Positions 1 to 43,187 of a stretch of DNA of 64,000 nt are shown here, one piece after another. The notes under the pieces are model-generated. The model was not told the DNA's origin and did not search any database. It worked only from the letters and a program-made list of their open reading frames with translations. The DNA lies in NCBI GenBank assembly GCA_013389115.1, contig JACADY010000061.1:62001-126000 (forward strand). Reading direction: 5' to 3'. The stretch is from Alphaproteobacteria bacterium. Lineage in GTDB: Bacteria; Pseudomonadota; Alphaproteobacteria; Micropepsales; Micropepsaceae. The stretch's first letter is position 1. Every line of letters begins with the position of its first letter. A program made the position numbers and the translations under genes.

Positions 1-1103
1 GCAGGGCGCGTCTGGGCGAGGCCCGAGAGATCGTTGATGTCCTCAACCATGCCTTCCGGCCGGCGCATCGCAAGAATGCAGACAAAGGTTCCGATCGTCA
101 TCGCCAGGTAGATGGCCAGGTAGATGATGACGCCCTGCACGCCTTCCTGCGTTCCCGCCGCAAGGCCGACCAGCATGTGCCCTACATTGGCGATCGAGGA
201 ATAGGCCATCAGGCGCTTGATATTGGTCTGGCCGATCGCCGCAAACGAGCCGAGGAGGATCGAGGCAATCGAGACAAAGACGATGATCTGCTGCCACTGA
301 ACGGCGATGGCAAACAGCGGATCGATCAGTACGCGCAAGACCAGCGCCATCGCCGCAAGCTTTGGCGCCGCGGCGAAGAAGGCGGTTACGGGCGTCGGTG
401 CGCCCTCATAAACATCCGGCGTCCACATATGGAAGGGGACGGCGCTGATCTTGAAGGCAAGGCCTGCAAGCAGGAACACAAGACCGACCGTGAGGCCGAT
501 GTTTTGTCCACCGCTCGCAACGGCATTGCCGATGGCGTCAAAGCCCGTCGCGCCGGAAAAACCATAGATGAGCGAGGCGCCATAGAGCAGCAGCCCGGAT
601 GAAAGCGCGCCCAAGACGAAATATTTGAGCCCGGCTTCCGTCGATCGCACCGAGTCCCGGCTATAGGCGGCAAGGACGTAGAGCGCCAGACTTTGCAGCT
701 CTAGCCCGATATAGAGCACCACAAGGTCGTTGGCCGAGATCATCAGCATCATGCCCGTCGTCGCAAAGACGATGAGCACGGGGAACTCAAACCGGCGCAG
801 ACGCTCCGTCGCGATGTAGCGCGCCGACATGATGACGGCGAGCGCCGCGCCCGTCAGCACCAGCAGCTTCATGACGCGCGTGAAACCATCGGCGATGTAG
901 GTGCCATGAAAGGCGAGCCGCTCCTCCGGCGCACCGGAAAAGACGCTGATCGAGACGAGCGCGAAGAGCACAAGGGTGAGGATGTTCAACTCGCCGGTCG
1001 CGCCATCGCCGCGAAAGACGCCCCACATCAAAAGCGTCATCGCGCCAAGCGCCAGGATGAGCTCGGGGAGGATGATCAAGAGATCCTGCTGCAGGGTTTC
1101 CAT
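1..1103 (-). CDS. nuoN: NADH-quinone oxidoreductase subunit N, 3' end beyond window
   Basis: Membrane-arm, antiporter-like subunit of complex I that helps couple NADH:quinone oxidoreduction to proton pumping. About 367 codons are visible of a family length near 480; the C-terminus lies outside the left edge. The start is the ATG at 1103, giving an N-terminus [14 protein letters not shown]. The frame then reads as repeated hydrophobic helices with the family signatures [13 protein letters not shown] and [18 protein letters not shown], which contain the conserved membrane lysines. It is the last nuo gene here, 11 bp after nuoM. Identity is certain; only the end is missing. Confidence 0.95.
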
Positions 1104-1114
1104 CGTCCCTTCCC

Positions 1115-2614
1115 TTACGGATTCGGCGCCATGAGGAGCATCGATTGCGTGTGCTCTGAAATCAGCGCCTGAACGGCGGCGCCCGTCACCTCAAAGACCG
1201 GCATCGGATAGAGGCCGAAAACGATCGTCGCAACGACGAGCGGCGCCAATATTATCCATTCGCGCCAGTCCAGATCGGCAATGGTCTGCAGGGCAGGCTT
1301 TTCAAGCGCGCCGAACACGACGCGGCGATAGAGCGTCAGCGCATAAGCGGCAGACAAGATCACGCCCGTCGTCGCGAAAAGCGCGACCCAGGTGTTCACC
1401 TGGTAGGCGCCGACCAGTGTCAGGAATTCACCGACGAAGCCGCTCGTTCCCGGCAGGCCCACATTCGCCATGGTGAAGACCATGAACATGAAGGCGTAGA
1501 CAGGCATGCGGTTGACGAGGCCGCCATAAGCCGCGATCTCGCGCGTGTGCATGCGGTCATAGATGACGCCGACGCACAGGAACAAGGCACCCGAGACGAT
1601 GCCGTGGCTCAGCATCTGCATCAGCGCGACGTCAATACCCTGACGCGTGATGGTGAAGATGCCCATCGTGACAAAGCCCATATGCGCAACCGAGGAATAG
1701 GCAATGAGCTTCTTGATGTCTTCCTGGGCAAGCGCAACGAGCGATGTGTAGATGATCGCGATGATCGAGAGCGCATAGACAAACGGCGCAAACTCGACCG
1801 AGGCCAAGGGGAACATCGGCAGCGAAAAGCGGATGAAGCCATAGCCGCCCATCTTCAGAAGAATGCCCGCAAGGATGACCGAGCCGGCGGTCGGTGCCTC
1901 CACATGCGCGTCGGGAAGCCAGGTGTGGACCGGCCACATCGGCATCTTGACGGCAAAGGAGGCGAAGAAGGCGAACCAAAGCCATCGCTGCGCCTCGGCG
2001 GCGAACTCGTAGTGGAGCAACGCCTTGATGTCGGTCGTGCCCGTGACGCCATACATGTAAAGGATGGCGAGCAGCATCAGGACGGAGCCGAGAAGCGTGT
2101 AGAGGAAGAATTTGTAGGTCGCGTACACGCGCCGCTTGCCACCCCAGACGCCGATGATGATGAACATCGGAATGAGGCCGCCCTCAAAGAAGAGATAGAA
2201 AAGGACGAGGTCGAGCGCGCAGAAAACGCCGATCATCAGCGTTTCGAGCACGAGAAACGCGATCATGTAGTCCTTGATGCGGAGGGTGATCGTGTTCCAG
2301 CTGGCCAGAATGCAGGCCGGCATCAAGAAAGCGGTCAGGACGACGAAGAGCATAGAAATGCCATCGACGCCCATGCGGTATTTGATGTTGCCACCCAGCC
2401 ATTCGGCGCTTTCCTCAAACTGAAAGCCGGGATTGGCCGGATCAAAAGTCCACCAGAGCGAGAGCGACAGGCCAAGCGTGACGATCGTCGTGTAGAGCGC
2501 GACCTGCTTGACGTTGCGCTCTCCCTCAGGTCCGTCCGCGCGAATTGCCACGATCAGAAGCGCGCCGATCAGCGGCAGGAAGGTGATGAGCGAGAGCAAA
2601 GGCACGGTTTCCAT
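1115..2614 (-). CDS. nuoM: NADH-quinone oxidoreductase subunit M
   Basis: Antiporter-like proton-pumping subunit of the complex I membrane arm, 499 aa, the usual family length. It is hydrophobic throughout. Visible signatures are the conserved glutamate in [12 protein letters not shown], the lysine in [18 protein letters not shown], and [19 protein letters not shown]. The ATG at 2614 shares one base with the TAA stop of nuoL, so the two are probably translationally coupled. It ends in TAA, which shows that TAA is a normal stop codon in this genome. Confidence 0.97.
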
Positions 2615-4587
2615 TATTGCGCTCCCATCGCCATGAAATAGGTGACGAGCGCGGCGATGCCGATCAACATCGCGAAGGCGTAGTGATAGATGTAACCCGA
2701 CTGGAGCTGAACCACCCGGCGGGTCGTGTCCATCACGCGCGCCGCCACGCCGTCTGGACCAAATCCATCGATGAGCCAGCCATCGCCGTCGCGCCAGAAC
2801 AGCCGCGCGAGCGCATAGGCCGGACGTACAAAGATGAGGTCGTAGAGCTCATCGAAGTACCATTTGCGGTAGATGAAGGTGTAAAGGAGGCCCTTGCGCT
2901 CTGCCATGCGGGCAGGCAGTCCCGGATTGTTCAGATAGAAGTGCCAGGCAATGGCAAGCCCCGTCAGCATGACGGCGAGCGGCGCCAGCTTGACCCAGGT
3001 CGGGACCTCGTGGCTCAGGTCCAGCGCCTTGTGCTCTTCAAGCACAAAGATCGCGCCCTTCCAGAATTCCCCGCGGTGATGGCCGATGAAATCATCGGCG
3101 AAGTACATTCCGGCAAAGGCCGCGCCGAACGCGAGGACCGCGAGCGGGATCATCATCACCGGCGGGCTCTCATGGACATGAGTGAGCGTTTCCTCATCCT
3201 CGTGATGCGGCCCGTGGAAGGTCATGAAGATGAGGCGCCAGGAATAGAATGAAGTCATCAAGGCGGCCGCGATGCCTGCGATGAAGGCATAGATGCCGGG
3301 GTCGGTCGCGGCGGCATAGACGCTCTCGATGATCGCATCCTTCGAATAGAAACCGGCAAAGCCGATATTCGGCAGTTCGTGCGAGAGGACGCCGAGCGGA
3401 ATGCCAACGCCCGTCAAGGCGAAGGTGCCCACCAGCATCATCATCCAGGTCATGGGGATGAGACGGAAGAGGCCGCCCATGTGCCGCATGTCCTGCTCAT
3501 GATGCATCGCGTGGATGACCGAGCCTGCGCCCAGGAACAGAAGCGCCTTGAAGAAGGCATAGGTGAAGAGATGGAACATCGCCGCCTCATAGGCCGAGAC
3601 GCCGCAGGCAAAGAACATGTAGCCGAGCTGGGAACAGGTCGAGTAGGCGATGACGCGCTTGATGTCGTTCTGGAACATGCCGACTGTGGCGGCAAAAAAA
3701 GCGGTCGTCGCGCCCACGATCGTGACGACGGCCAACGCAACCGGCGCGAACTCGAACATGGGCGAGCAACGGCAAACGAGGAAGACGCCCGCCGTCACCA
3801 TGGTCGCGGCATGGATGAGGGCCGAGACGGGCGTTGGACCCTCCATCGCGTCGGGAAGCCAGGTGTGAAGGGGAACCTGCGCGGACTTGCCCATCGCGCC
3901 CATGAAGAGGAGGAGACAGATCGTGTCGAGGACATCAAGCCTCATCCCCAGGAACTCGAAGGTCTGCCCGGCCTGTTCGGGGACCGCAGCAAAGACGGTG
4001 CTGAAGTCAAGCGAGCCAAAGGCAAAAAACACGCCCATGATGCCAAGTACGAAACCGAAATCGCCAACCCGGTTGACGATGAAGGCCTTGATGGCGGCCG
4101 CGTTCGCCTCGGGCTTGTGATACCAAAAGCCGATCAAGAGATAGGAGGCGAGGCCGACGCCCTCCCAGCCGAAGAACATCTGCAGGAAATTGTCGGCCGT
4201 CACCAGCATCAGCATGGCGAAGGTGAAGAGCGACAGATAGGCAAAGAAGCGCGGGCGGTGCGGATCCTCGGCCATGTAGCCGATCGAGTACAGGTGCACG
4301 AGCGCCGAGACCGTGTTGACAACGACCAGCATGACGCCCGTCAGCGCATCAAATCGCAGCTTCCAGGCAACCTCCAGGGCGCCGCTATCGATCCAAGTGA
4401 AGATCGTGAGCGTCACAGGCTCCCCATGGCCGAGGGCGAAGCGCGAGAAGGCGGCGAGCGAGAGCCCCAGCGCCAGCATCATGAAGGAAGTGGTGAGGTA
4501 TTCCGCCCCCCGCTCGCCCAATTGCCGGCCGAAAAAGCCAGCGATGATCGCGCCAGCGAGGGGAAGGAAGACAATGGCCGAAAGCAT
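2614..4587 (-). CDS. nuoL: NADH-quinone oxidoreductase subunit L
   Basis: Largest antiporter-like subunit of complex I, 657 aa, at the distal end of the membrane arm. Signatures include [19 protein letters not shown], which holds the conserved glutamate, and [19 protein letters not shown]. The region after about residue 500 fits the long lateral helix and terminal transmembrane helix that clamp the membrane arm in known structures. The gene starts 5 bp after nuoK and its stop overlaps the nuoM start. Confidence 0.97.
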
Positions 4588-4592
4588 GGGCC

Positions 4593-4910
4593 CTAACCCC
4601 GCATCATGTTGATGTCCTCAACCGCGATCGTGCCGCGGTTGCGGAAGTAGACGACGAGAATGGCAAGCCCGATGGCCGCTTCGGCCGCCGCAACGGTCAG
4701 CACCATGAGGGCAAAGACCTGTCCTGCCACCTGACCCAGATGCATGGAGAAGGCGACAAGGTTGATATTGACGGCGAGCAGAATGAGCTCAATCGACATC
4801 AGGATGACGATGACGTTCTTGCGATTGATGAAGATGCCAAGAATGCCAATCGTGAAGAGTATCGCGGCTGTCGTCAGATAGTGGCCAAGGCCAATGTCAA
4901 AGGGTGCCAT
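4593..4910 (-). CDS. nuoK: NADH-quinone oxidoreductase subunit K
   Basis: Small membrane subunit of complex I, 105 aa, with three predicted helices. The two functionally important membrane glutamates are present in the contexts [13 protein letters not shown] and [13 protein letters not shown]. The start is ATG at 4910, 5 bp after the nuoJ stop, in the standard J-K-L-M-N order. It ends in TAG. Confidence 0.96.
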
Positions 4911-4915
4911 CGCGT

Positions 4916-5524
4916 TCAGATCCCCTGCCCCGGTTTGACTTTCTTCAGCTCGACCGCCTCCTCACGCGTCCGGCCAACCTGGCGCGCAACCGATTGCCGG
5001 CGCACGCCCTCGCGATGACGAAGCGTGAGCACAATGGCACCGATCATCGCCAGCAACAGGACGAGGCCCGAAAGCTGAAACACAAAGAAATAGTCCGTAT
5101 AGAGAACGCGTCCGAGAGCCTCGGTATTGGAGATGCCGCCCGGGGGAAGTTCGGGCCTTGCCGTGACCGTGGTTCCCGCGGCGAAGTTCCAGGCCAGGAG
5201 CACGACAATCAACTCGGCAAGCAGCACGCCCGCGATGACGGCGCCAAAGGGCAGGTATTCCAGAAAGCCCTCGCGAAGCTCAGTGAAGTCGATGTCGAGC
5301 ATCATCACGACGAAAAGGAAGAGGACGGCGACAGCACCCACATAGACAACGACGAGGATCATCGCCAGGAACTCTGCCCCCATCAGCACGAAGAGGCCGG
5401 CCGCGTTGAAGAAAGCGAGAATGAGGAACAGCACCGAGTGGACGGGATTGCGTGCGGCAATCACCATGATGGCCGAGATCACCAGCACACCGCTGAACAG
5501 ATAGAAGGCGAGCGCTTGAAGCAC
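4916..5524 (-). CDS. nuoJ: NADH-quinone oxidoreductase subunit J
   Basis: Membrane subunit of complex I, about 202 aa with five predicted helices; the motif [19 protein letters not shown] is typical of NuoJ. The open frame extends upstream to 5611, but that stretch is low-complexity and unlike NuoJ. The GTG at 5524 (N-terminus [12 protein letters not shown]) matches the family N-terminus and is preceded by AGAAAAGGA, a plausible ribosome binding site, so it is chosen as the start. An unusually long, hairpin-rich spacer separates it from nuoI. Confidence 0.92.
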
Positions 5525-5572
5525 GCGGCAGTCCTTTTCTCTTTTCCCGCCTTTAAGACCGGAAGCGGCCCT

Positions 5573-5724
5573 TGGCCCGGCGGGCCATCTTGCGAGGCGC
5601 AAGTCGTCCATTCACGGGTAAGCCCGGCGCAGGAGGTGCGCCCGGATTTCGCGTGGGACAGACCCCGCCGCCCCTCATGGGGCCCGTCCTTTAGCTGATA
5701 CGCCGATTCGGCGGGAAATCCGCC
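5573..5724 (-). other. Hairpin-rich spacer between nuoI and nuoJ, candidate structured RNA
   Basis: The only long gap in the nuo operon (5525-5747) holds a run of short perfect inverted repeats. They are TGGCCC/GGGCCA (5573-5587), CTTGCG/CGCAAG (5589-5603), CGGG/CCCG (5615-5626), GGCGC/GCGCC (5626-5642), and GGAC/GTCC (5656-5689) enclosing CCCC/GGGG (5671-5682). Two mutually exclusive stems follow, CGCCG/CGGCG (5701-5713) and GGCGG/CCGCC (5710-5724). Any nuoI-nuoJ transcript would contain them. A decayed palindromic mobile repeat is the main alternative; no U-tract is present, so it is not a classic terminator. Confidence 0.45.
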
Positions 5725-5747
5725 CTGGTGAGGAAACCGGCGCCGTT

Positions 5748-6236
5748 CTAGCGGTAAGGTGCGTCCAACTCCAGATTTTTCGCGATTTCGCGCTCCCACC
5801 GGTCGCCGTTGGCGAGCAATTTCTCCTTGTTGTAGAGAAGCTCGGCGCGGGTCTCGGTTGAAAACTCGAAATTCGGTCCCTCCACGATCGCATCGACCGG
5901 GCAAGCCTCCTGGCAAAAGCCGCAATAGATGCATTTGACCATATCGATGTCATAGCGGGTCGTGCGGCGCGAGCCGTCATCGCGCGGCTCGGCCTCGATG
6001 GTGATCGCCTGGGCCGGGCAGATCGCCTCGCAGAGCTTGCAGGCGATGCACCGCTCCTCACCGTTGGGATAGCGACGCAGTGCATGCTCTCCCCGGAAAC
6101 GGGGCGATAGCGGCCCCTTCTCAAAGGGATAGTTCACGGTCGGCTTGGGCCGCGCCATGTATCTGAGCGCGAGGAACATGCCGGAGACGATGTCCATCAG
6201 CATCACTGCGCGCAGGTTCCGCTCCAGCCAGGACAT
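5748..6236 (-). CDS. nuoI: NADH-quinone oxidoreductase subunit I (two 4Fe-4S ferredoxin)
   Basis: Peripheral-arm subunit of complex I that carries electrons between NuoG and NuoB through clusters N6a and N6b. It is 162 aa, the usual alphaproteobacterial length. The two cluster motifs are clear: [12 protein letters not shown] near residue 63 and [12 protein letters not shown] near residue 102. The ATG at 6236 gives [15 protein letters not shown]. It lies 12 bp after the nuoH stop, and its assembly depends on the iron-sulfur machinery encoded later in this window. Confidence 0.97.
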
Positions 6237-6248
6237 GGACTTTCTCCT

Positions 6249-7304
6249 TCAGGTTGGATAGGCGCCAGTGAGAACGAGATAGCCCGCCGTCACCACGACC
6301 CAAACGAGCGTTGTCGGCAGAAAGACCTTCCAACCCAGCCGCATGAGCTGGTCATAGCGATAGCGCGGCACGATGGCCTTGGTGAGTGCGAAGATGCAGA
6401 AGATCAGCCAGACCTTGATCATGAACCAAATCGCGCCTGGCACGGCATTCAAGGGAAAGATGTCGAGCGGCGGCAGCCAACCGCCCAGGAACAGGGTCGT
6501 GAACATCGCGCACATGAGAACGATGCTTACATATTACCCGATCATGTAGAGCAGGAACGGCGTCGAGGAATATTCGACCATATAGCCGGCGACGAGCTCC
6601 GATTCGGCCTCAGGCAGGTCGAAGGGGGGGCGGTTCGTTTCAGCGTGGGCGGAAATCAGGAATATGACCGCCATCGGAAAGAGCAGCGTGAAGAGGTTCC
6701 AGCCGTGCTCGCCCTGCTGACGCACGATCTCCGACAGATTCAGCGATCCCGCCCAGAGCAGCACCGTGATCAGCACGAACCCGATCGAGACCTCGTAGGA
6801 CACCATCTGCGCCGCCGTGCGCATGGCGCCAAGAAAGGGATATTTCGAGTTCGATGCCCATCCGCCCATGATGATGCCGTAGACGCCGAGCGAAGAGATG
6901 GCGAAAAGATAGAGAATACCGACATTGATGTTGGAGACGACCCAGCCCTCGGACACGGGAATGACCGCCCAGGCCGATAGCGCGAGGGTCAGTGTGACGA
7001 TAGGCGCCAGCAGGAAGATGAACTTGTTCGCGCTAGCCGGAACAACCGGCTCCTTCACGATATACTTCAGAAAGTCGGCGAAGGACTGGAGCAAACCGAA
7101 GGCACCGACGACATTCGGTCCCTTGCGCAATTGCACCGAGGCCCAGATCTTGCGATCCGCCAGCAGGATGAAGGCCAGATTCACAAGCAGGGTGAGGACG
7201 AGGAGGAGGATGCCCGTCAGAACGCCCAGCACCCAGGAAAGCTCATAGGGAACCTCCCCGAACAATGCGGTGAGCGCCCAGTTCCAGAAATCAATCAAGA
7301 CCAT
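6249..7304 (-). pseudogene. nuoH: NADH-quinone oxidoreductase subunit H, interrupted by one in-frame TAA
   Basis: NuoH forms the quinone chamber at the joint of the two arms of complex I. From the ATG at 7304 the frame encodes 256 aa of typical NuoH, including [21 protein letters not shown]. It then meets TAA at 6534-6536 and continues in the same frame for 94 aa to the normal C-terminus at 6249. Full length with read-through would be about 351 aa, normal for the family. Family members read G-E-Y here (A-E-Y in mitochondrial ND1), so the stop replaces a conserved glutamate codon, consistent with GAA to TAA. Both halves look otherwise intact. A sequencing or assembly error, a very recent nonsense mutation, or read-through are all possible. 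An ATG at 6515 could start a separate C-terminal fragment but has a weak ribosome binding site. Confidence 0.9.
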
Positions 7305-7311
7305 GTCGGGT

Positions 7312-9462
7312 TCACTCCGCGGCGGATGCGAGCGGGCGCCCCGCGCTCGACCGGCTGCATTCAGCCAATGTCGCGCTGGCACGGGCGATCGGGTTCGTCA
7401 GATAGAAATCGCTGATGGGATAGACAAAGGGATGGGCATTGTCGATGGGTCCCGCGGTACCGATGGCGCGCCATATCGCGGGATCGGCCGGCGGAAAGCC
7501 GGGCGCCTTGTCCAATTGAGCGACGTGGGGCGCGTCGGACGCCATCGCCTCTCGCAACTGCGCGAGGCTGTCATAGGGAAGCTTCCTTCCCAGAACCTCG
7601 GACAGTGCGCGCAGGATCGTCCAATCCTCCTTTGCCTCGCCCGGGGGAAAGGACGCGCGGTTCGCCCGCTGCACACGGCCTTCAATATTCACATAGGTTC
7701 CAGGCTTTTCGGTATAGGCCGCCCCCGGCAGGATGATGTCGGCGCGGTGCGCGCCCTTATCGCCATGGCTGCCCAGATAGATCACGAAGGCCTTGCCAAG
7801 CGCCCGGGTGTCGATCTCATCGGCGCCGAGCAGGAAGAGCGTGTCGATCTCGCCCTTGCCGGCGCCCGCCACGATGCCGGCGGTGTCACGGCCGCCCTGC
7901 CCTGGCAGGAAACCCAGATCGAGCGCGGCGACACGCGCGGCTGCGGTGTGCAGCAGGTTGAAGCCGTTCCAACCCGCCTCGCCCTCCGGTCCGATCATGC
8001 CCGTCGCGCTGGCGATCTTCGCACAGGCGGCGAGGACGGCAGCGCCATCGGGCCGTGCGAGCGCACCCATGCCGATGATCAGCATCGGATGCTTCGCGCT
8101 CTTCAGCGTTTCGAAGGCGGCGTGGCGGCCATCCGCGATCGCGATCAGGTCGGCCGGGTTGTTACCCAACTCACAGACCGGGTAGTTGAGATCCGCAGGG
8201 GGACCGAGGCGGGCGATGTTGAGATTGCCGCGCAGCCATGCCTTGCGGATGCGGGCATTGAGGACCGGGGCCTCCATCCTCGGATTGGTGCCGATGAGCA
8301 GCAGCGCGTCAGCGGCCTCGACACTGGCGATGCCTGAATTGAACAGATAGCCCGCGCGGGGGCCACGCGTCCCATCCGGCGCAAGGCCGATCTTGGCGCC
8401 GTCCTGGCGGCAGTCGAGATTGACAACGCCGAGCGCGGTCATCAGGTCTTTCAGCGCCTTGATGCTCTCCGCGTCGGCAAGGTCGCCCACGATGGCGGCC
8501 ATGCGCTCGGGCTTCGTTGTGGCGAAGCGCGCGGCGATGGCGGCGAAGGCCTCCGGCCAATCGGCTTCCGTCAACTTTCCGTCCTTGCGGACATAGGGTC
8601 GGTCGAGACGCTGGCGTTTCAGTCCATCCCAGACGAAGCGCGTCTTATCGGAGATCCACTCCTCGTTCACATCGTCATTGTTGCGCGGCAGGATGCGCAT
8701 CACCTCCCGCCCGCGCGCGTCGATGCGAATGTTGGCGCCAAGCGCATCCATGACATCGATGCTCTCGATCTTCTTCAATTCCCATGGCCGCGCGTTGAAC
8801 GCGTAAGGCTTGGAGGTCAGCGCGCCCACAGGACAAAGATCGATGATGTTGCCCGAGAGCTCGCTCGTCACGGCCTTTTCAAGATAGGTCGTGATCTCCA
8901 TGTCCTCGCCCCGGCCGATGGCGCCGATCTCATCGACTCCAGCGACCTCGGCCGCGAAGCGCACACAGCGCGTGCAATGAATGCAGCGCGTCATGATCGT
9001 CTTGACGAGCGGGCCCATGTTCTTTTCGGTGACCGCGCGCTTGTTCTCCTTGAAGCGCTCGAGCTTATCGTGGCCATAGGCCATGGCCTGGTCCTGCAAA
9101 TCGCACTCGCCACCCTGGTCGCAGATCGGGCAATCGAGCGGGTGATTGATGAGCAGGAATTCCATCACGCCTTCGCGCGCCTTCTTGACCGTGGGCGATC
9201 CCGTCACGATCTCATGCAGCGGCTGGCCTTCCTTGACAGGCGGCAGGTCGCGCAATTGCTGCGCGCAGGAGGCGACGGGCTTGGGGCCGGGGCGGCCACC
9301 CATGCGCACCTCAACAAGGCACATGCGGCAATTGCCCGCGATCGACAGACGCTCATGGAAGCAGAAGCGCGGGATCTCCTTCCCCGCCGCCTCGCAAGCC
9401 TGAAGCAAGGTCAGGTTGGGGTCGAGGTCGTATTCCTTGCCGTCGATGATGATCTTGGTCAT
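7312..9462 (-). CDS. nuoG: NADH-quinone oxidoreductase subunit G
   Basis: Large iron-sulfur subunit of the NADH-oxidising module, 716 aa. The N-terminal ferredoxin-like region has the 2Fe-2S cysteines around [10 protein letters not shown], the His-Cys 4Fe-4S site [19 protein letters not shown], and a further site TRCIHCTRC. The remainder is the molybdopterin-oxidoreductase-like fold, which carries no molybdenum in this family. The start ATG at 9462 gives [13 protein letters not shown]. It lies 6 bp after the small pentapeptide-repeat gene and 7 bp before nuoH. Confidence 0.97.
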
Positions 9463-9468
9463 GGGGAG

Positions 9469-9741
9469 CTATGTCGTTCGTTGCGCGCGGTAGGCCGCGA
9501 AGAGGTCGGCGACGGCGACGCCATCGATGGTCATGCCGTCCAGATTGCAGTGCGAAATGGCGGCCCCGGAGAGATTCGCGTCCGTGATGCGCAGGTTGCC
9601 GAGGCACGCATTCTCGATGCGCGCGCCGGTCAGCTTCACATCCGTAAAACTTGCACCCGCAAGGTTCACGTTAACGAACCGAGAGGCCGAGAGATCTGCA
9701 TCGTTCGCATCAATCGTTTCGCGGGTGTGGTGAAGGTTCAT
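9469..9741 (-). CDS. Small pentapeptide-repeat protein inside the nuo operon
   Basis: A 90-aa protein made almost entirely of pentapeptide repeats, the A(D/N)LXX type that folds as a right-handed quadrilateral beta-helix. About twelve units are visible, for example DADLS, NVNLA, GASFT and DANLS. It ends in a short tail, VADLFAAYRAQ. It has no signal peptide or membrane segment, so a cytoplasmic location is expected. It sits between nuoF and nuoG with gaps of 6 bp on each side, so it is co-transcribed with complex I. The family ranges from DNA-mimic to structural proteins and no function can be assigned. Confidence 0.85.
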   Translation of the reverse strand: MNLHHTRETIDANDADLSASRFVNVNLAGASFTDVKLTGARIENACLGNLRITDANLSGAAISHCNLDGMTIDGVAVADLFAAYRAQRTT

Positions 9742-9747
9742 TGCACC

Positions 9748-11046
9748 CTACTCCGCCGCGATGGCCGGCTTGGCGCCGCGCTTCTGAGCGATGCGGCGCT
9801 CAAGCTCCGGACGGAAGTGGCGGATGAGACCCTGAATCGGCCAGGCCGCCGCATCGCCGAGCGCACAGATCGTGTGGCCTTCAACCTGCTTTGTCACTTC
9901 GAGCAGGAGATCGATTTCTTCTACCTCCGCCTCGCCCTTCACCAGTCTTGTCATCACGCGCCACATCCAGCCGGTGCCCTCACGGCACGGCGTGCACTGG
10001 CCGCAGCTTTCATGCTTGTAGAAATAGGACAGCCGCGCGATCGCCCGCACGATGTCGGTCGACTTGTCCATGACGATGACCGCCGCCGTGCCGAGGCCCG
10101 ACTGCACGTCGCGCAAGGAATCGAAATCCATCAGCACGGTGTCACAGATCGATTTGGGTAAGAGCGGCACCGAGGAGCCACCGGGGATCACGGCCAGGAG
10201 ATTGTCCCAGCCGCCGCGGACGCCGCCCGCGTGGCGATCGATCAGCTCACGTAGCGGGATGCCCATTTCCTCCTCGACATTGCAAGGCTTATTCACGTGC
10301 CCTGAGATGCAGAAGAGCTTGGTGCCGGTGTTGTTCGGGCGGCCGAGCGCGGCAAACCACGCCGCTCCCCGGCGCAGGATGGTCGGCGCCACCGCAATCG
10401 ATTCCACGTTGTTGACCGTGGTGGGGCAGCCATAGAGGCCGACATTGGCCGGAAAGGGCGGCTTCAGGCGCGGCATGCCCTTCTTGCCCTCAAGGCTTTC
10501 GATGAGCGCCGTTTCCTCACCGCAGATATAGGCGCCAGCGCCGTGATGCACGATCACGTCGAAATCATAGCCATGCACGTTGTTCTTGCCGATGAGACCC
10601 GCCGCATAGGCCTCTGCGACGGCCTCTTCCATGTGCTCACGCTCACGGATGAACTCGCCGCGGATATAGATGAAGGCGGCGACGGCGCGCATGGCGAAGC
10701 CCGCAACGAGGCAGCCCTCGATCAGGGTGTGAGGGTCGTGGCGCAGGATCTCGCGATCCTTGCAGGTGCCGGGTTCGGACTCGTCCGCATTGACGACGAG
10801 ATATGACGGGCGACCGTCGGACTGCTTGGGCATGAAGGACCACTTAAGGCCGGTCGGGAAGCCCGCGCCGCCGCGTCCGCGCAATCCCGATTTCTTCATC
10901 TCCTCGACGATCGCGTCGGGGCCTTTTTCAAGGATCGCCTTGGTGCCGTCCCAGATGCCGCGCTTGCGCGCGCCGGCGAGGCGCCAATCTTGGAAGCCGT
11001 ACAGATTCTGAAAGATGCGGTCCTTATCGGCGAGCATCTGTCGCAC
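9748..11046 (-). CDS. nuoF: NADH-quinone oxidoreductase subunit F (NADH/FMN/4Fe-4S)
   Basis: Catalytic entry subunit of complex I, which binds NADH and FMN and holds cluster N3. It is 432 aa. The nucleotide/flavin motif [16 protein letters not shown] is near residue 54, and the 4Fe-4S motif [14 protein letters not shown] is near residue 348. The start is ATG at 11046. The 36-bp gap to nuoE is the largest among the hydrophilic subunits but still fits one transcript. Confidence 0.97.
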
Positions 11047-11082
11047 CCAATGCGTTTTTCGTGTTCACATGGTCCGGCATTA

Positions 11083-11688
11083 TCAGGCCTTCACCTCTTT
11101 GAGGGTCGTCGCGCCGCCCAGCGGTTCTGATGAGAAGCGGCCATTCGCCGGGCCGGGCTTAGGCGCGCGGCCCGCCTTTAGATCATCGAGCAGGCGCTCG
11201 GTCGCGGGGCCGTCAAGATCTTCATAGAAATCCTTGCCAATCTGCACGACAGGCGCGTTCACGCAGGCGCCGAGACACTCAACCTCCATCCAGCTCCACA
11301 GTCCCTCGCCGTAAACGGTCTGTGGCTTGGGGCCGATATGCTTCTTGCAGGCATCGAGGATCTCGTCCGAGCCGCGCAGCATGCAGGGTGTCGTCGTGCA
11401 GACCTGGATCAGGTGCCGGCCCACAGGCGCCAAGTTAAACATCGTATAGAAGGTCGCGATCTCGTAGACGCGGATATAGGAAAGGCCGAGCATGTCGCCC
11501 AGATAGCGCAGCATAGGCTCGGTCACATATCCGCCCTGCTGCTCTTGCGCGCGCCAGAGCAACGGCACTATGGCGGAGGCCTGGCGCCCATCTGGATATT
11601 TCGCGATCCGGTCCTTGGCCCAGGCGAGGTTCTCGGCCGTGAAGGCGAAGGTCGCGGGCTGATCGGGGGCAAGACGGCGGGTGCTCAT
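11083..11688 (-). CDS. nuoE: NADH-quinone oxidoreductase subunit E (2Fe-2S thioredoxin-like)
   Basis: Thioredoxin-fold subunit of the NADH module that carries cluster N1a, 201 aa. The four ligands are visible as the pair in VCTTTPC and the pair in ECLGACVNAP. The C-terminal 30 residues are a proline/glycine-rich tail of the sort common in alphaproteobacterial NuoE. The start is ATG at 11688 (MSTRRLAPDQPATF), 4 bp after an NTF2-like gene. Confidence 0.95.
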   Translation of the reverse strand: MSTRRLAPDQPATFAFTAENLAWAKDRIAKYPDGRQASAIVPLLWRAQEQQGGYVTEPMLRYLGDMLGLSYIRVYEIATFYTMFNLAPVGRHLIQVCTTTPCMLRGSDEILDACKKHIGPKPQTVYGEGLWSWMEVECLGACVNAPVVQIGKDFYEDLDGPATERLLDDLKAGRAPKPGPANGRFSSEPLGGATTLKEVKA

Positions 11689-11692
11689 GCTC

Positions 11693-12034
11693 TCAAGCCT
11701 TCACGAATTCGCAGCGGGCAATCTTGCCGCCCGCAATGGTGTAGATGGCCGCGACATAAAAGGGGACCGCATCGGGCGCGCGGCGGACCTCCTCATGGTC
11801 GATGACGGTGTTGCCAAGGATGATGCGGCCGAGGAGTACGACCTGATTGCCGGGGAATTCGGCGAATACCTTGGCATAACGGTCACGCAGAGCCGCAAGC
11901 CCTTGGCAGTTCTCCGTGCCGCGATAGTCGGCGATGACGACATCGTCGGCGTAGTAGGCACAGAATCGGTCGAGATTCTGCACGTTGTAGGCGTCGAGCT
12001 GGCCTTGGGCGATCTGTCCGGCGGTTAGCGCCAT
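11693..12034 (-). CDS. NTF2-like / SnoaL-type small protein inside the nuo operon
   Basis: A 113-aa protein that reads as a single NTF2-like alpha+beta cone, as in ketosteroid isomerase and SnoaL-like proteins. It begins with the helix QIAQGQLDAYNVQNLDRFC, followed by YADDVVIADYRG, and ends in the sheet YTIAGGKIARCEFV. Its ATG overlaps the nuoD TAA by one base and nuoE follows after 4 bp, so it belongs to the complex I transcript. The family holds enzymes, binding proteins and scaffolds, and no substrate can be named. Confidence 0.82.
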   Translation of the reverse strand: MALTAGQIAQGQLDAYNVQNLDRFCAYYADDVVIADYRGTENCQGLAALRDRYAKVFAEFPGNQVVLLGRIILGNTVIDHEEVRRAPDAVPFYVAAIYTIAGGKIARCEFVKA

Positions 12035-13212
12035 TACCGGTCCACCTCTCCGAACACGATGTCGAGCGAACCCAGAATCGCCGAGACGTCAGCCAGCATG
12101 TGGCCCCGGCAGAGGAAGTCCATCGCCTGCAAGTGCGCAAATCCGGGCGCGCGGATCTTGCAGCGATAGGGCCTGTTGGTGCCGTCGGCGACGAGATAGA
12201 CGCCAAACTCTCCCTTGGGCGCTTCGACCGCCGCATAAACCTCGCCAGAAGGCACGTGATAGCCTTCGGTATAAAGCTTGAAGTGGTGGATGAGCGCTTC
12301 CATCGAACGCTTCATGTCGCCGCGCTTTGGCGGGACGATCTTGTTGTCGGTCACGGAAACGGGGCCGCCCGGCATCTTCTCGATGCACTGGCGCATGATC
12401 TTGTTGGCCTGGCGCATCTCTTCCATGCGGATGAGATAGCGGTCGTAATTGTCGCCGTTCTTGCCGACCGGGATGTCGAATTCGAGCTCGTTATAGCATT
12501 CGTAAGGCTGGGCCCGGCGCAGGTCCCAGGCCATGCCAGAGCCGCGCACCATGACGCCGGAGAAGCCCCAGGCCTGTGCATCCTCGGCCGAGACGACACC
12601 GATATCGACGTTGCGCTGCTTGAAGATGCGATTGCCGGTCAGCAGGGCGTCAATATCATCGAGGGCCTTTGGGAAGGTCTCGGTAAAGGCATAAATATCA
12701 TCGAGCAGGTCCTGCGGCAGGTCCTGATGCACGCCGCCCGGGCGCACATAGGCCGCGTGCATGCGGCTGCCGCTTGCGCGCTCATAGAAGATCATCAGCT
12801 TTTCGCGCTCTTCAAAGCCCCAAACGGGTGGGGTCAGCGCGCCGACATCCAAGGCTTGCGTCGTCACGTTCAGCATATGCGAGAGAATGCGGCCGATTTC
12901 GCTATAGAGGACGCGGATGTACTGACCCCGGGGCGGCACGTTCAGGCCCAGGAGGCGCTCAACGGCGAGCGCGAAGGCGTGCTCCTGGTTCATGGGGGCG
13001 ACATAGTCCAGGCGATCGAAATAGGGCACGGCCTGGAGATAGGTCTTGGCCTCGATCAGCTTTTCGGTGCCGCGATGAAGCAGGCCGATATGGGGGTCGA
13101 CACGCTCGACCACCTCACCGTCGAGTTCCAGAACCAAGCGCAAAACGCCATGCGCGGCAGGATGCTGCGGGCCGAAATTGATGTTGAAGCTGCGGGACTT
13201 TTCTTGCGACAT
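12034..13212 (-). CDS. nuoD: NADH-quinone oxidoreductase subunit D
   Basis: Quinone-site subunit of complex I, related to the large subunit of NiFe hydrogenases, 392 aa. The N-terminal loop [17 protein letters not shown] includes the conserved quinone-binding histidine, and [16 protein letters not shown] and the C-terminal [21 protein letters not shown] are diagnostic. It is separate from nuoC, as in most alphaproteobacteria. A GFA-family gene lies 9 bp upstream and an NTF2-like gene overlaps its stop. Confidence 0.97.
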
Positions 13213-13221
13213 CGCGGCGCG

Positions 13222-13650
13222 CTACTCCGATTGCTTGCTGAATGCGGCCAAGACTTCCGCGCCGGTCATGCGCTTGCGTTCGCCCGCGAAGGCGTAGTTC
13301 GCGGGCTTCTCATCGACAAAAATCTCAGTCGTGAATTCGAAGATTCCCGGATCATCGAAGGCCTGGGCCGAGACGCCTGTAAAGCTGCCATCGCGCATAC
13401 GCCAAAAGAGCGTTGAGCCGCAAACGGAACAAAAGCAGCGCTCCGCCCAATCGGAAGAGCCATAGACGCCAAGCTTGGCGCCGTCGGCGATCTTCAGCGA
13501 TGTGCCGACATCGACTGCGAAAAGTGGTCCAGCCGACCAGCGCCGGCACATGGAACAATGGCAGCTGTCCATGTGAAGCGCCCGCGGCTCAGCGGTGAAG
13601 GTTACAGCTCCGCACAGGCATCGACCGCTCAGTGTCTTACCGCTCGTCAT
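13222..13650 (-). CDS. GFA / CENP-V-type zinc-binding protein inside the nuo operon
   Basis: A 142-aa member of the GFA (glutathione-dependent formaldehyde-activating, CENP-V/GFA) fold. Zinc-ligand cysteines appear as GRCLCGAV near residue 10, [10 protein letters not shown] near residue 30, and [12 protein letters not shown] near residue 75. The start ATG overlaps the nuoC stop by 4 bp and nuoD begins 9 bp later, so it is embedded in the nuo operon. Most family members are not shown to act on formaldehyde, so the substrate is unknown. Confidence 0.88.
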
Positions 13651-14273
13651 TTGCCCTCCTTGGCCTTGCCGGCCTTTTCATCGCCGGGAAGCACGTATTT
13701 CGCGCCCTCCCAGGGAGACATGAAGTCAAAGCTGCGGAATTCTTGCATCAGTTTCACGGGTTCATAGACGACGCGCTTCTGCTCGTCGTCATAGCGCACC
13801 TCCACAAAGCCCGTAAGCGGGAAGTCCTTGCGCAGTGGATAGCCGGAGAAACCGTAATCGGTGAGGATGCGGCGCAGGTCGGGATGACCTGAAAACACGA
13901 TGCCGTAAAGGTCGAAGGCTTCACGCTCGAACCAGTTCGCCGCAGGAAAGAGATCGCAGCAAGAGGGAACGGGCGTTTCCTCATCGGTTTGAACCTTTAT
14001 CCGGATACGCTGGTTCTGGCGCATCGATAGCAGGTGATAGACAGCGTCAAAGCGACGCGCGCGCTCTGGATAGTCCGCGCCGCAAATGTCAATCAGCGTC
14101 GTGAACTGGCAGAGCGGCTCATCGCGCAAGGTGCGCAAGACCTTCAGGATGTCGGCAGGCGCCACCTCCAGCGTCAGGTCTCCCACCGCCACATGCACGG
14201 CGTTGACCTCTTTGGGCAGGAGCCCCGTCACGTGATCGGCGAGTTCGCGCAAGGCCTCATCGGTCATGGTCAT
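13647..14273 (-). CDS. nuoC: NADH-quinone oxidoreductase subunit C
   Basis: Hydrophilic connecting subunit of complex I (30-kDa subunit), 208 aa. The family core is clear: [29 protein letters not shown] near residue 117, followed by [10 protein letters not shown]. The start is ATG at 14273, 6 bp after nuoB. Its last codons overlap the start of the GFA gene by 4 bp. Confidence 0.96.
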
Positions 14274-14279
14274 GTCGCC

Positions 14280-14843
14280 TCAACGCTCGATGTTGCCGGT
14301 CCGGCGGATTTTCTTTTGAAGCTGCATCACGCCGTAAACGAGACCCTCCGCCGTCGGCGGGCAGCCGGGCACATAGATGTCAACCGGAACGATGCGGTCG
14401 CAGCCCCGCACGACCGAATAGGAATAGTGATAATAGCCGCCGCCATTGGCGCAGGAGCCCATCGAAATCACATAACGCGGCTCGGGCATCTGGTCATAGA
14501 CCTTGCGCAGGGCCGGTGCCATCTTGTTCGTCAACGTGCCTGCAACGATCATCACATCGGACTGACGCGGGCTGCCACGCGGGGCGAATCCAAAGCGCTC
14601 CAGGTCATAGCGCGGCATGGAGGCCTGCATCATCTCAACCGCGCAGCAGGCAAGGCCAAAGGTCATCCAGTGCAAAGAGCCGGTTCTGGCCCAATTTATG
14701 ACGTCGTCGAGAGCGGCAACCAGAAATCCCTTGTTGGCCAGTTCACCCTGCAGCGCATCGAACATCAGATCATCAGGGCCGGGCTTGTGGCCGCCCTCAA
14801 CGCCCGATCGCGCGCCCGCGCCCGCCGGTACGATCACTCCCAT
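14280..14843 (-). CDS. nuoB: NADH-quinone oxidoreductase subunit B (N2 cluster)
   Basis: Carries the terminal 4Fe-4S cluster N2 that reduces quinone, about 187 aa. The adjacent cysteines in [13 protein letters not shown], the cysteine in [16 protein letters not shown], and [11 protein letters not shown] supply the cluster ligands. The frame is open to 14864, but the ATG at 14843 (MGVIVPAG) has the ribosome binding site GAAGGGAG about 8 bp upstream and overlaps the nuoA stop, so it is preferred. Confidence 0.95.
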
Positions 14844-15199
14844 TCGAGCGCTCCCTTCTTCCACTCATAGATGAAGCCGACCGTAAGGACGGCGAGGAAG
14901 GCCAGCATGGAGAAGAAACCGGCCACGCCCGTTTCCTTCAAGGTAATCGCCCAAGGAAAGAGGAATGCGACCTCAAGGTCGAAAATGATGAAGAGGATGG
15001 CGACCAGATAGAAGCGCACGTCAAACTTCATGCGCGCATCGTCGAATGCGTTGAACCCGCATTCATAGGCCGAGAGCTTCTCCGGATCGGGCTTTTGCGG
15101 CGCGATCACAAAGGGCACGATGGTCAGCACGATGGAGAGCCCGAGCGCCAATCCGATGAACAGCAGAATGGGCAGGTACTCGATCAGAAGATTTTCCAT
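14834..15199 (-). CDS. nuoA: NADH-quinone oxidoreductase subunit A
   Basis: First gene of the complex I operon, 121 aa with three predicted helices. The conserved loop [21 protein letters not shown] and the acidic helix [14 protein letters not shown] identify it. The start is ATG at 15199, and its 3' end overlaps the nuoB start by 10 bp. The 251-bp region upstream to tRNA-Asp probably holds the operon promoter. Confidence 0.96.
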
Positions 15200-39719: not shown

Positions 39720-42700
39720 TCAAGGCGTCGCGGAACGGCTGCGATCGTTGGTACTGGCGCTGGGGCTGTCGCTATATTCGAAGATGCGCCGGAAAATGCC
39801 GGGCGCGATCGCGGAAAGCGGGTTGACCGAGATTCTCAGATCATCGGACGAGCCTCTGACCGCATAGGTCATGCCAAGAATGCCCTCGCCCTCGCGCGAG
39901 GTGAGGATGTCGCCGATCAGGGGAATGCCATCGAGGATCGAGTTGATGCCATAGATGGGCACCAAGGTCCCCACGATGTTGATGCCGCCATTGGCGCCAA
40001 GCGATCCTTCCGCCGTCAAGCCGATCGAAGGGCCGCTCGCCTTCGCATCCTCGATGCTCCAGCGCTCATCCTTGCGGCTGAAGGGCACATCCAGGCGGTC
40101 AAAGGCGATGCCCTCGCCACGCAGAAGATCGGAAATGCCGACCAGCGATCCGGCGGCAAACAGCCGGGCAAGAAAGGGCTGATCGACGATGCGGAATTTG
40201 TCGACGCGCAGCTTTCCCGATGCGGTCGCGGTGCTGGTCTTGCCCGCATCGAGCGAGGCGGTGAGGTTGAGATTTCCGCCCTTCATGCTTTCAAAGCCTG
40301 TAATGCCCTCGACAAGCTCTCCGGCATTGGCGGTCTCAACCGCCATTTCCCGCCGGCCGCTCTTCTGTCTGATGGCGATGCTGGCCGCTCCGCCGCGGGA
40401 AAGGGCGCCGGTCAGAACAAGCTCCGCAAGCTCCCCGCTTTCGTGGCGGGAGCGCAAGCGGACACCCGTCATGGCGGCGGTCCCGCGCAGGTAGAGCTGA
40501 TCGAGGCTGCCGTCGAGCGTGAGGGGCGTCGCCGCGCTTGCCTCTTCGGCGGGTGTCGCGGGCGCTTTGGACTCATCCCCGCCGTCTTCTTCGCCATCGG
40601 CGAACATTTTGGCAATCGCGCCCGACAGATCGGCGCTCCTGCCGGCAAAGGTGATGAGAAAGCCGTTGTCACGGCGCGCAACGGCGGCGCGGAAGTCGTT
40701 GCGCGCGCCCAGATTGACGAGCGGGAATTCGGCCGCCGTCAGGCTTCCCTCGGCGTCGAAGTCGAGGTCGCCGGACACGGCGAGCTTGCGCCCTGAAATC
40801 TCAAGATCATCGATGCGGTCGAGCCGGCCCTTCGCGTCCAGTCGGAACGAGAAACGCGCGGCGGCGGCCTCGCCCTCACTCTTCGACCAGGAGAGCGGCG
40901 TGAAGGAGAGTGTCGTTTGCGTCAGATCGAGCGTCACCTTGCCCGTCTCAACTTCACCTCCCCTGCCCCTCAGATCCGCCTTGAGGCCGATAGGTCCTGT
41001 CACATTGTCCATGTGCGGGAAGCCGATGCTGGCGCGCTGCGCATCATCGAGGGTCGCGGCGATCGTGACGTTGCTTGAGGGTTTGCTGCCTGCATCGAAA
41101 CGCTCAATCCATTTCAGATCGAGGGGGATGTCCTTCATCGTCACGGGACCCTTTGCCTCAAGCCGGGTGCCATCGATGGCAAAGTCAAGCGCGCCCTTCG
41201 AAAGTACGAGCCCGTCGCCCAGATCAAGGCCCAGGCCGTTCGTCTTCGCCGCGATGTCGAACGCGATTTCCGAAACAGGAAGGTCCTTCTTCAAGGGCAG
41301 AGTGAGATCGAGCGAGAGCGAAGCGGTTCCCGCGGCGTCCTCCGGCTTGATGCCAAAGCGGCTCGCATAGCCAAGCGGCTGCATGTCGATGAGGGCGAGG
41401 ATGTCCTTGACCTCACCTTCGGCCTTCGCCTTGAAGTTGCCCGGTCCATAGTCGATGTGAAAATCATCGATCAGGATCGCGCCGCCCGTCAGGCGGAGAC
41501 TGCCCACCTTGCCGGATTCGAGATCGGCCTCGAAGCGATCGCCATAGAGCGTCGCGCTGCCCTTTGCTTCTGTGATGTGCGTCAGACCGCTGAGGAAGTT
41601 CGCCTCCAGACCCTCAAAGGAAAAATCGAGACGCAGCATCTCGTCGGGCAGAAACTCGCCGTCCATGGCCCCAACAGGGAGATCAGCCTTGAGCACGCCT
41701 TTGGTGATGAGGCCGGTGCTCAAATTGGCGTCGATCCAGTCGCGCGCGCCAGCGCCCATACCCTTTGGCCAATAGGCCGCGAGGTCCCGCACCTTGAGGG
41801 CGCTCAACTGGCCCTCAAGGGCAAGCGCGGGGGATGCGTCGGGCCTGTCTTGCGCATAGGCGAGACGGCCCTTCAGGCTCATCTCGAAATCACCAGCGCG
41901 CAGGGAAGCATTCTCGATGTCGAGCGAATTCTCAGACCCATCGTACCCGCCGCGAAAGCCAATGCGGTCGAGGCTGAGTTTTTGCGAGAATAGGCCCGGA
42001 AGGTTCACCGTCACGGCATCGCCCGTCATGCCGCCCCAAATGCCGGAAATCGAACCGCTGCTTGTGTAGGTGAGATTGGCCTGACCGGAGAAAGAGCCCG
42101 ACAGGCCCTCAGCCCTCAAGGTCAGCTGTTCGATGAGCACGCTTTGGCTGGGGCCGTCATAGGTCATCGCCAGTTCGGCGGAATCGACAGCGATGCCGTC
42201 GGGGCCGGCCGGCGACACCACGATGCTTCCCTTGCCCAGCGAGACCCAGGCCGTGAGCGCGCTCAGTTCTCCCCGGCGCGTGAGCTCGGCCGTCAGCGTC
42301 CCTTAGCCGGGCACATTGATCCCGTCAAAGAAGCCGAGGAGGCGGGTGGATTGCGCGAGCCGGGAGAGGACGATCTCAGGAAAGCTCAGCTCCAGATGGA
42401 TGCCTTCGCTGCCCTGCTTGTAGAGGCCGCGCGCGGAAACCGGCCATATCTCGCCGTTGATATCGAGCCCCGCGTCCACAAGGGCGCTCACGCCCGCCCC
42501 GTCACGCGACAGCGACAAGGACGCGGAGGGCGCGGTCAACTTCGAGCCCGTCTCGGCATCCCTCAGCGTCAGCGATGCGTTCTTGACGCCCACATAGGCG
42601 AGGTAGGTCGAGGTATCGGCGGGATCAGGCGGCAGGAGCATATCGGCCAGGAGGGCTTCAACAACGCGCGGATCGCTCGGACTGGCCGCGCCTTCGCTCT

Positions 42701-43187
42701 TCACCCCGATCGTGACACTGCCGTCTTCCTGGCGCACGGCTTCGGCCGAAAGCCCCGTGACCTCCACGCGGCGCGGCGCGATCTTGCCGTTCAGAATGGC
42801 GCTCAAGGCCAGCTCGACCCGCACGGCCGGCATGCGCATGATCTCGCGATTGTCCGGGTCCACAATCCGCAGGTCGTAGGCAAGAAAGCCGACACGGCTC
42901 TCGCCTGGAAACCATGACAGGTAAAGGCTGCCGACCTTAGCCGATATCTCGCCATCGGCCGCCTCATTCAGCGCTTTTTCCAGCACGGGCGCGAGGAAGG
43001 CCACCGGCATGGGCGCCACCATCAGCCAAACGAGGAAGATCAGGCCAGCCAAGATGACCCCCGCTGGCAGCAGCAACACACGCAAGAGCCAACGCCTCCA
43101 CGCCGGCGCCTTGTGCGGCACCGTCACGGGCTCCAGCGGCGCACCATGCGGGTCACTATCCATACGCAGTCCGTCCATCGACGGCAT
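39720..43187 (-). pseudogene. AsmA/DUF3971-family (YhdP-like) protein, interrupted by one in-frame TAA
   Basis: One frame of 1156 codons. The ATG at 43187 follows AAGGAGGAAG. Residues 1-294 hold a basic cytoplasmic segment, a transmembrane helix (LLRVLLLPAGVILAGLIFLVW) and the first part of the DUF3971 region. TAA occurs at 42303-42305 (codon 295), and the same frame continues without a break for 860 more codons to 39720. The C-terminal part ends in the AsmA-like segment GTLVPIYGINSILDGIPLIGD. Family members bridge the periplasm and move lipids to the outer membrane. The combined length is normal for the family. Sequencing error, recent nonsense mutation or read-through are possible. A restart at the GTG near 42221 would lack the membrane anchor. 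Confidence 0.85.

Follow-up and report, generated by a model that had tools for sequence, protein, structure and literature searches.

An in-frame TAA in the nuoH gene of a draft alphaproteobacterial genome, most likely a sequence error or else a very recent mutation

An interrupted nuoH gene within the nuo operon

Members of the NuoH/ND1 family (PF00146) have an unbroken reading frame that includes a glutamate of the E-channel. In published structures, Glu227 of human ND1 lines the ND1 cavity and adjoins Glu192 and Glu202 (PMC9120487). Two kinds of described system come closest to an interrupted gene of this family. One is a solved complex I in which ND1 is split into two chains, ND1 and ND1b (7tgh chains 1 and 1B), and the other is the lesion found in draft and metagenome assemblies. 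The nuoH gene analysed here resembles the former in being interrupted in its C-terminal half, and the latter in that one base disrupts a conserved gene that is otherwise intact, while further lesions, one of them in a homopolymer, occur in the same assembly. Searching the literature for stop codons of metagenome-assembled genomes gave no papers on the matter, only general remarks about long-read indels.

The gene is located in a window of 64,000 nucleotides, the whole stretch of DNA that was analysed, within a 168,639-base contig. The assembly is a fragmented draft (2.79 Mb, 83 contigs, 87.9% complete) and is probably metagenome-derived; its nearest relatives are for the most part MAGs of uncultured Alphaproteobacteria, and one of these bears the label Micropepsaceae. 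The features of the nuo region are as follows.

6249-7304, minus strand: nuoH, a 351-codon frame interrupted at codon 257
6537-7304, minus strand: 5' part of nuoH, codons 1-256, with ATG at 7302-7304; Pfam NADHdh match (7.7e-89, profile positions 3-221)
6534-6536, minus strand: in-frame TAA at nuoH codon 257, a Glu codon in relatives
6249-6533, minus strand: 3' part of nuoH, codons 258-351 plus the natural TGA; Pfam NADHdh match (4e-23, profile positions 226-298)
1-14864, minus strand: remaining nuo operon, with nuoN (about 6-1106), M, L, K, J and I, then G, F, E, D, C and B
9469-9741, 11693-12034 and 13222-13650, minus strand: three small genes inside the operon, for pentapeptide-repeat, SnoaL-like and GFA-family proteins

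The plus strand reads TTA at 6534-6536, which gives TAA on the minus strand. The first-pass annotation of this window had placed a stop at codon 257 with normal NuoH sequence continuing beyond it, and this is borne out: the frame is open on either side, each side independently matches the NADHdh family profile, and the stop is flanked by LLYMIG before and YVSIVLM after, both of which are conserved. The gene thus departs from the NuoH/ND1 family in having TAA at codon 257 in place of an unbroken frame with the E-channel glutamate. The annotation's statement that the other nuo genes are intact holds for nuoB to nuoG and nuoI to nuoM, none of which has an internal stop. The genome contains a single copy of nuoH. 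The three small genes inside the operon had no match in the 20-kb nuo region of a relative from the same genus.

Conservation at and around codon 257

The same annotation had pointed to a conserved glutamate at the position of the stop. In our alignment the column holds glutamate, encoded by GAA or GAG, in 110 of 110 distinct relatives, with GAG in the sole same-genus genome. Sixty-one genomes were searched and 56 had NADHdh matches; in none of the 55 other genomes with matches was the domain interrupted by an internal stop. By alignment with a human ND1 sequence in which residues 59, 142, 143, 192, 202, 214 and 227 fit the published numbering, codon 257 corresponds to human Glu227. Assignment to human E214 (E. 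coli E228) was considered and rejected, because the alignment gives E227. The equivalent of human ND1 Glu227 is a residue of the quinone/E-channel cavity (PMC9120487).

Identity to the same-genus NuoH is 74% over codons 258-351 and 75% over codons 1-256, and the differences between the two genes are mostly at third positions. Judging from these comparisons, the frame downstream of the stop is under purifying selection. Decay of the kind expected in an old pseudogene was not seen in nuoH, which contains no further lesions and is equally conserved on both sides of the stop; the lesion is accordingly either not real or very recent.

Codons 163, 220 and 332 of nuoH encode T, H and T, respectively, at conserved sites, the histidine lying within the SALAETNR motif. 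The same odd residues are found in the same-genus genome, and thus they are traits of the lineage. Relaxed selection on nuoH was rejected as an explanation, because these residues are common to the two genomes and the identity of the gene is normal for membrane nuo genes.

Other broken genes in the assembly

The nuoH stop does not stand alone, a point unknown to the first-pass annotation. The window contains a second in-frame TAA, the sole other candidate from a coding-potential scan, and genes are broken elsewhere in the assembly as well.

39720-43187, minus strand: YhdP/DUF748-like gene of about 1,156 codons, with an in-frame TAA at 42303-42305
L163 (G000:C19:72800-74200): SDR gene with an in-frame TAG near 73424; Pfam matches on either side
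L161 (G000:C65:57500-61000): frameshifted ABC ATPase gene, the break lying at an A6 run
L171, about 10830-10853 (G000:C28): AMP-binding enzyme gene with a frameshift; Pfam matches on both halves
L178, about 6034-6060 (G000:C12): DUF3631 gene with a probable frameshift; Pfam match on one half only

Among relatives of the YhdP-like gene, taken from more than 20 genomes, no internal stop was seen, and the site is occupied by S, R, Q, N or D. Of 32 SDR genes surveyed in the genome, two are broken, one by the in-frame TAG and one by a frameshift, and internal stops were absent from all 119 SDR matches in three relatives. In total, about four frameshifts were recognized elsewhere in the assembly (ABC, SDR, AMP-binding and probably DUF3631). 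These lesion rates were drawn from sampled stretches, which gave the AMP-binding and DUF3631 cases, and from family searches, and the coding-potential scan for frameshifts was of poor sensitivity, missing two known cases.

The same-genus relative has one frameshift in 80 kb, so that lesions of this kind also occur outside this assembly, where their excess is modest. Internal stops were also absent from the 45 ABC domains above the cut-off in the genome; together with the frameshift of the relative, this indicates that the lesion rate is not dramatic. Of random substitutions in the nuo genes, about 3% create a stop, so that a modest error rate should yield a few stops of this kind. The two stops within some 58 kb of coding sequence in the window, along with the other lesions, would fit either a draft consensus of modest error rate or a lineage in which a few genes have freshly become pseudogenes. 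Error or mutation accounts for the presence of both substitutions and indels among the lesions, and recoding does not.

Origin of the stop codon

Because other genes of the assembly are broken likewise and nothing points to special decoding, the nuoH stop is most likely ordinary, the product of an error in the sequence or of a very recent mutation. The four options raised at first pass are thereby reduced to two: a base error and a fresh null mutation remain, and a split subunit and programmed read-through find no support.

We consider it probable that the TAA is a single-base consensus error, a mistaken base being more likely here than a true mutation. One wrong base in the draft consensus would have turned the glutamate codon of nuoH into TAA. 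The evidence that makes this reading the most likely is that the frame is otherwise intact, the residue is invariant, nuoH is present once, the operon is intact and NDH2_C has no match, and that the same assembly holds other isolated gene-breaking lesions of several kinds. Several observations count against a consensus error. Private base changes are not clustered around the stop (P about 0.11), the largest cluster being elsewhere; the genome does not stand out in its private missense changes at conserved sites; the lesion rate is not dramatic, as noted above; and the lesions are not all homopolymer indels, so that some may be true pseudogenes. A local burst of errors was considered from the unusual codons GGG, TAA and GTA and an F-to-Y change near the stop, and was rejected, since the rare-codon score reaches only about the top 5% of windows and the private base changes are not clustered there.

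It is possible, and we advance it tentatively, that the stop is real and very recent, being either a null allele of the sampled strain or a minority variant that entered the consensus. Carrier cells of such an allele would make no complex I. The remainder of nuoH and the operon are without decay, as a fresh mutation predicts, and the other broken genes could mark a lineage that is gathering loss-of-function changes. G-to-T changes, which arise commonly by mutation and also as artefacts of damage, were counted for a null allele. However, the residue and the gene are invariant in relatives, and loss of the sole nuoH despite a complete nuo operon should be costly. An alternative dehydrogenase, looked for as the NDH-2 C-terminal domain (NDH2_C), was not found in the genome, a weak test in that this family gave no signal in the E. 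coli control either.

Special decoding and a split subunit are highly unlikely even when taken together. Under special decoding, the stop would be real and translated at a frequency sufficient for full-length NuoH, either by programmed read-through or by reassignment of UAA to a residue, in a bacterium that tolerates internal UAA and UAG elsewhere; we regard this as very improbable. The purifying selection past the stop and the further in-frame TAA and TAG in the genome speak for it. However, none of the 38 tRNA genes found has a UAA-reading anticodon (the assembly, at 87.9% completeness, may lack about 12% of the genome), the two release-factor (PCRF) genes are both intact, and UAA is kept as the natural terminator of nuoM, nuoL and nuoD; neither a UAA-reading tRNA nor loss of UAA as a terminator, as reassignment would require, was thus seen among these tRNAs and nuo stops. 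As for read-through, the stop is absent from all relatives, the same-genus genome included, the 120 nt after it fold no better than shuffled sequences (z 0.03), and its context, UAA-U, is not leaky, UAA followed by U being an efficient stop in bacteria; neither a conserved stop nor a stimulatory structure or leaky context was therefore found in nuoH. Recoding would also leave the frameshifts among the lesions unexplained. If the codon were read through, nuoH would be a rare bacterial example of a core respiratory subunit with a decoded UAA.

A split NuoH, in which two chains are assembled, a 256-residue N-terminal piece and a C-terminal one begun afresh at codon 264, is barely conceivable: the first ATG after the stop does lie at codon 264 (6513-6515), seven codons downstream of the TAA, and 7tgh provides a precedent, but no relative is split at codon 257, the sequence ahead of this ATG, CGGGTAATATGTAAGCATCGTTCTC, has no clear ribosome-binding site as judged by eye, and the break costs the invariant glutamate within the conserved LLYMIG/YVSIVLM stretch. 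Of the two 7tgh chains, one aligns with query residues 23-280 and the other with 297-338, so that ND1 is divided there about 25-40 residues farther downstream with the conserved glutamate kept, whereas the nuoH stop removes it. The break thus differs in position from that of 7tgh, and does not match the loop break of a split ND1.

With a consensus error as the preferred reading, a lone stop in a draft genome is to be weighed against the other lesions of its assembly before a biological mechanism is proposed for it. The living organism would most likely carry an ordinary glutamate codon at this position and make a full-length NuoH.
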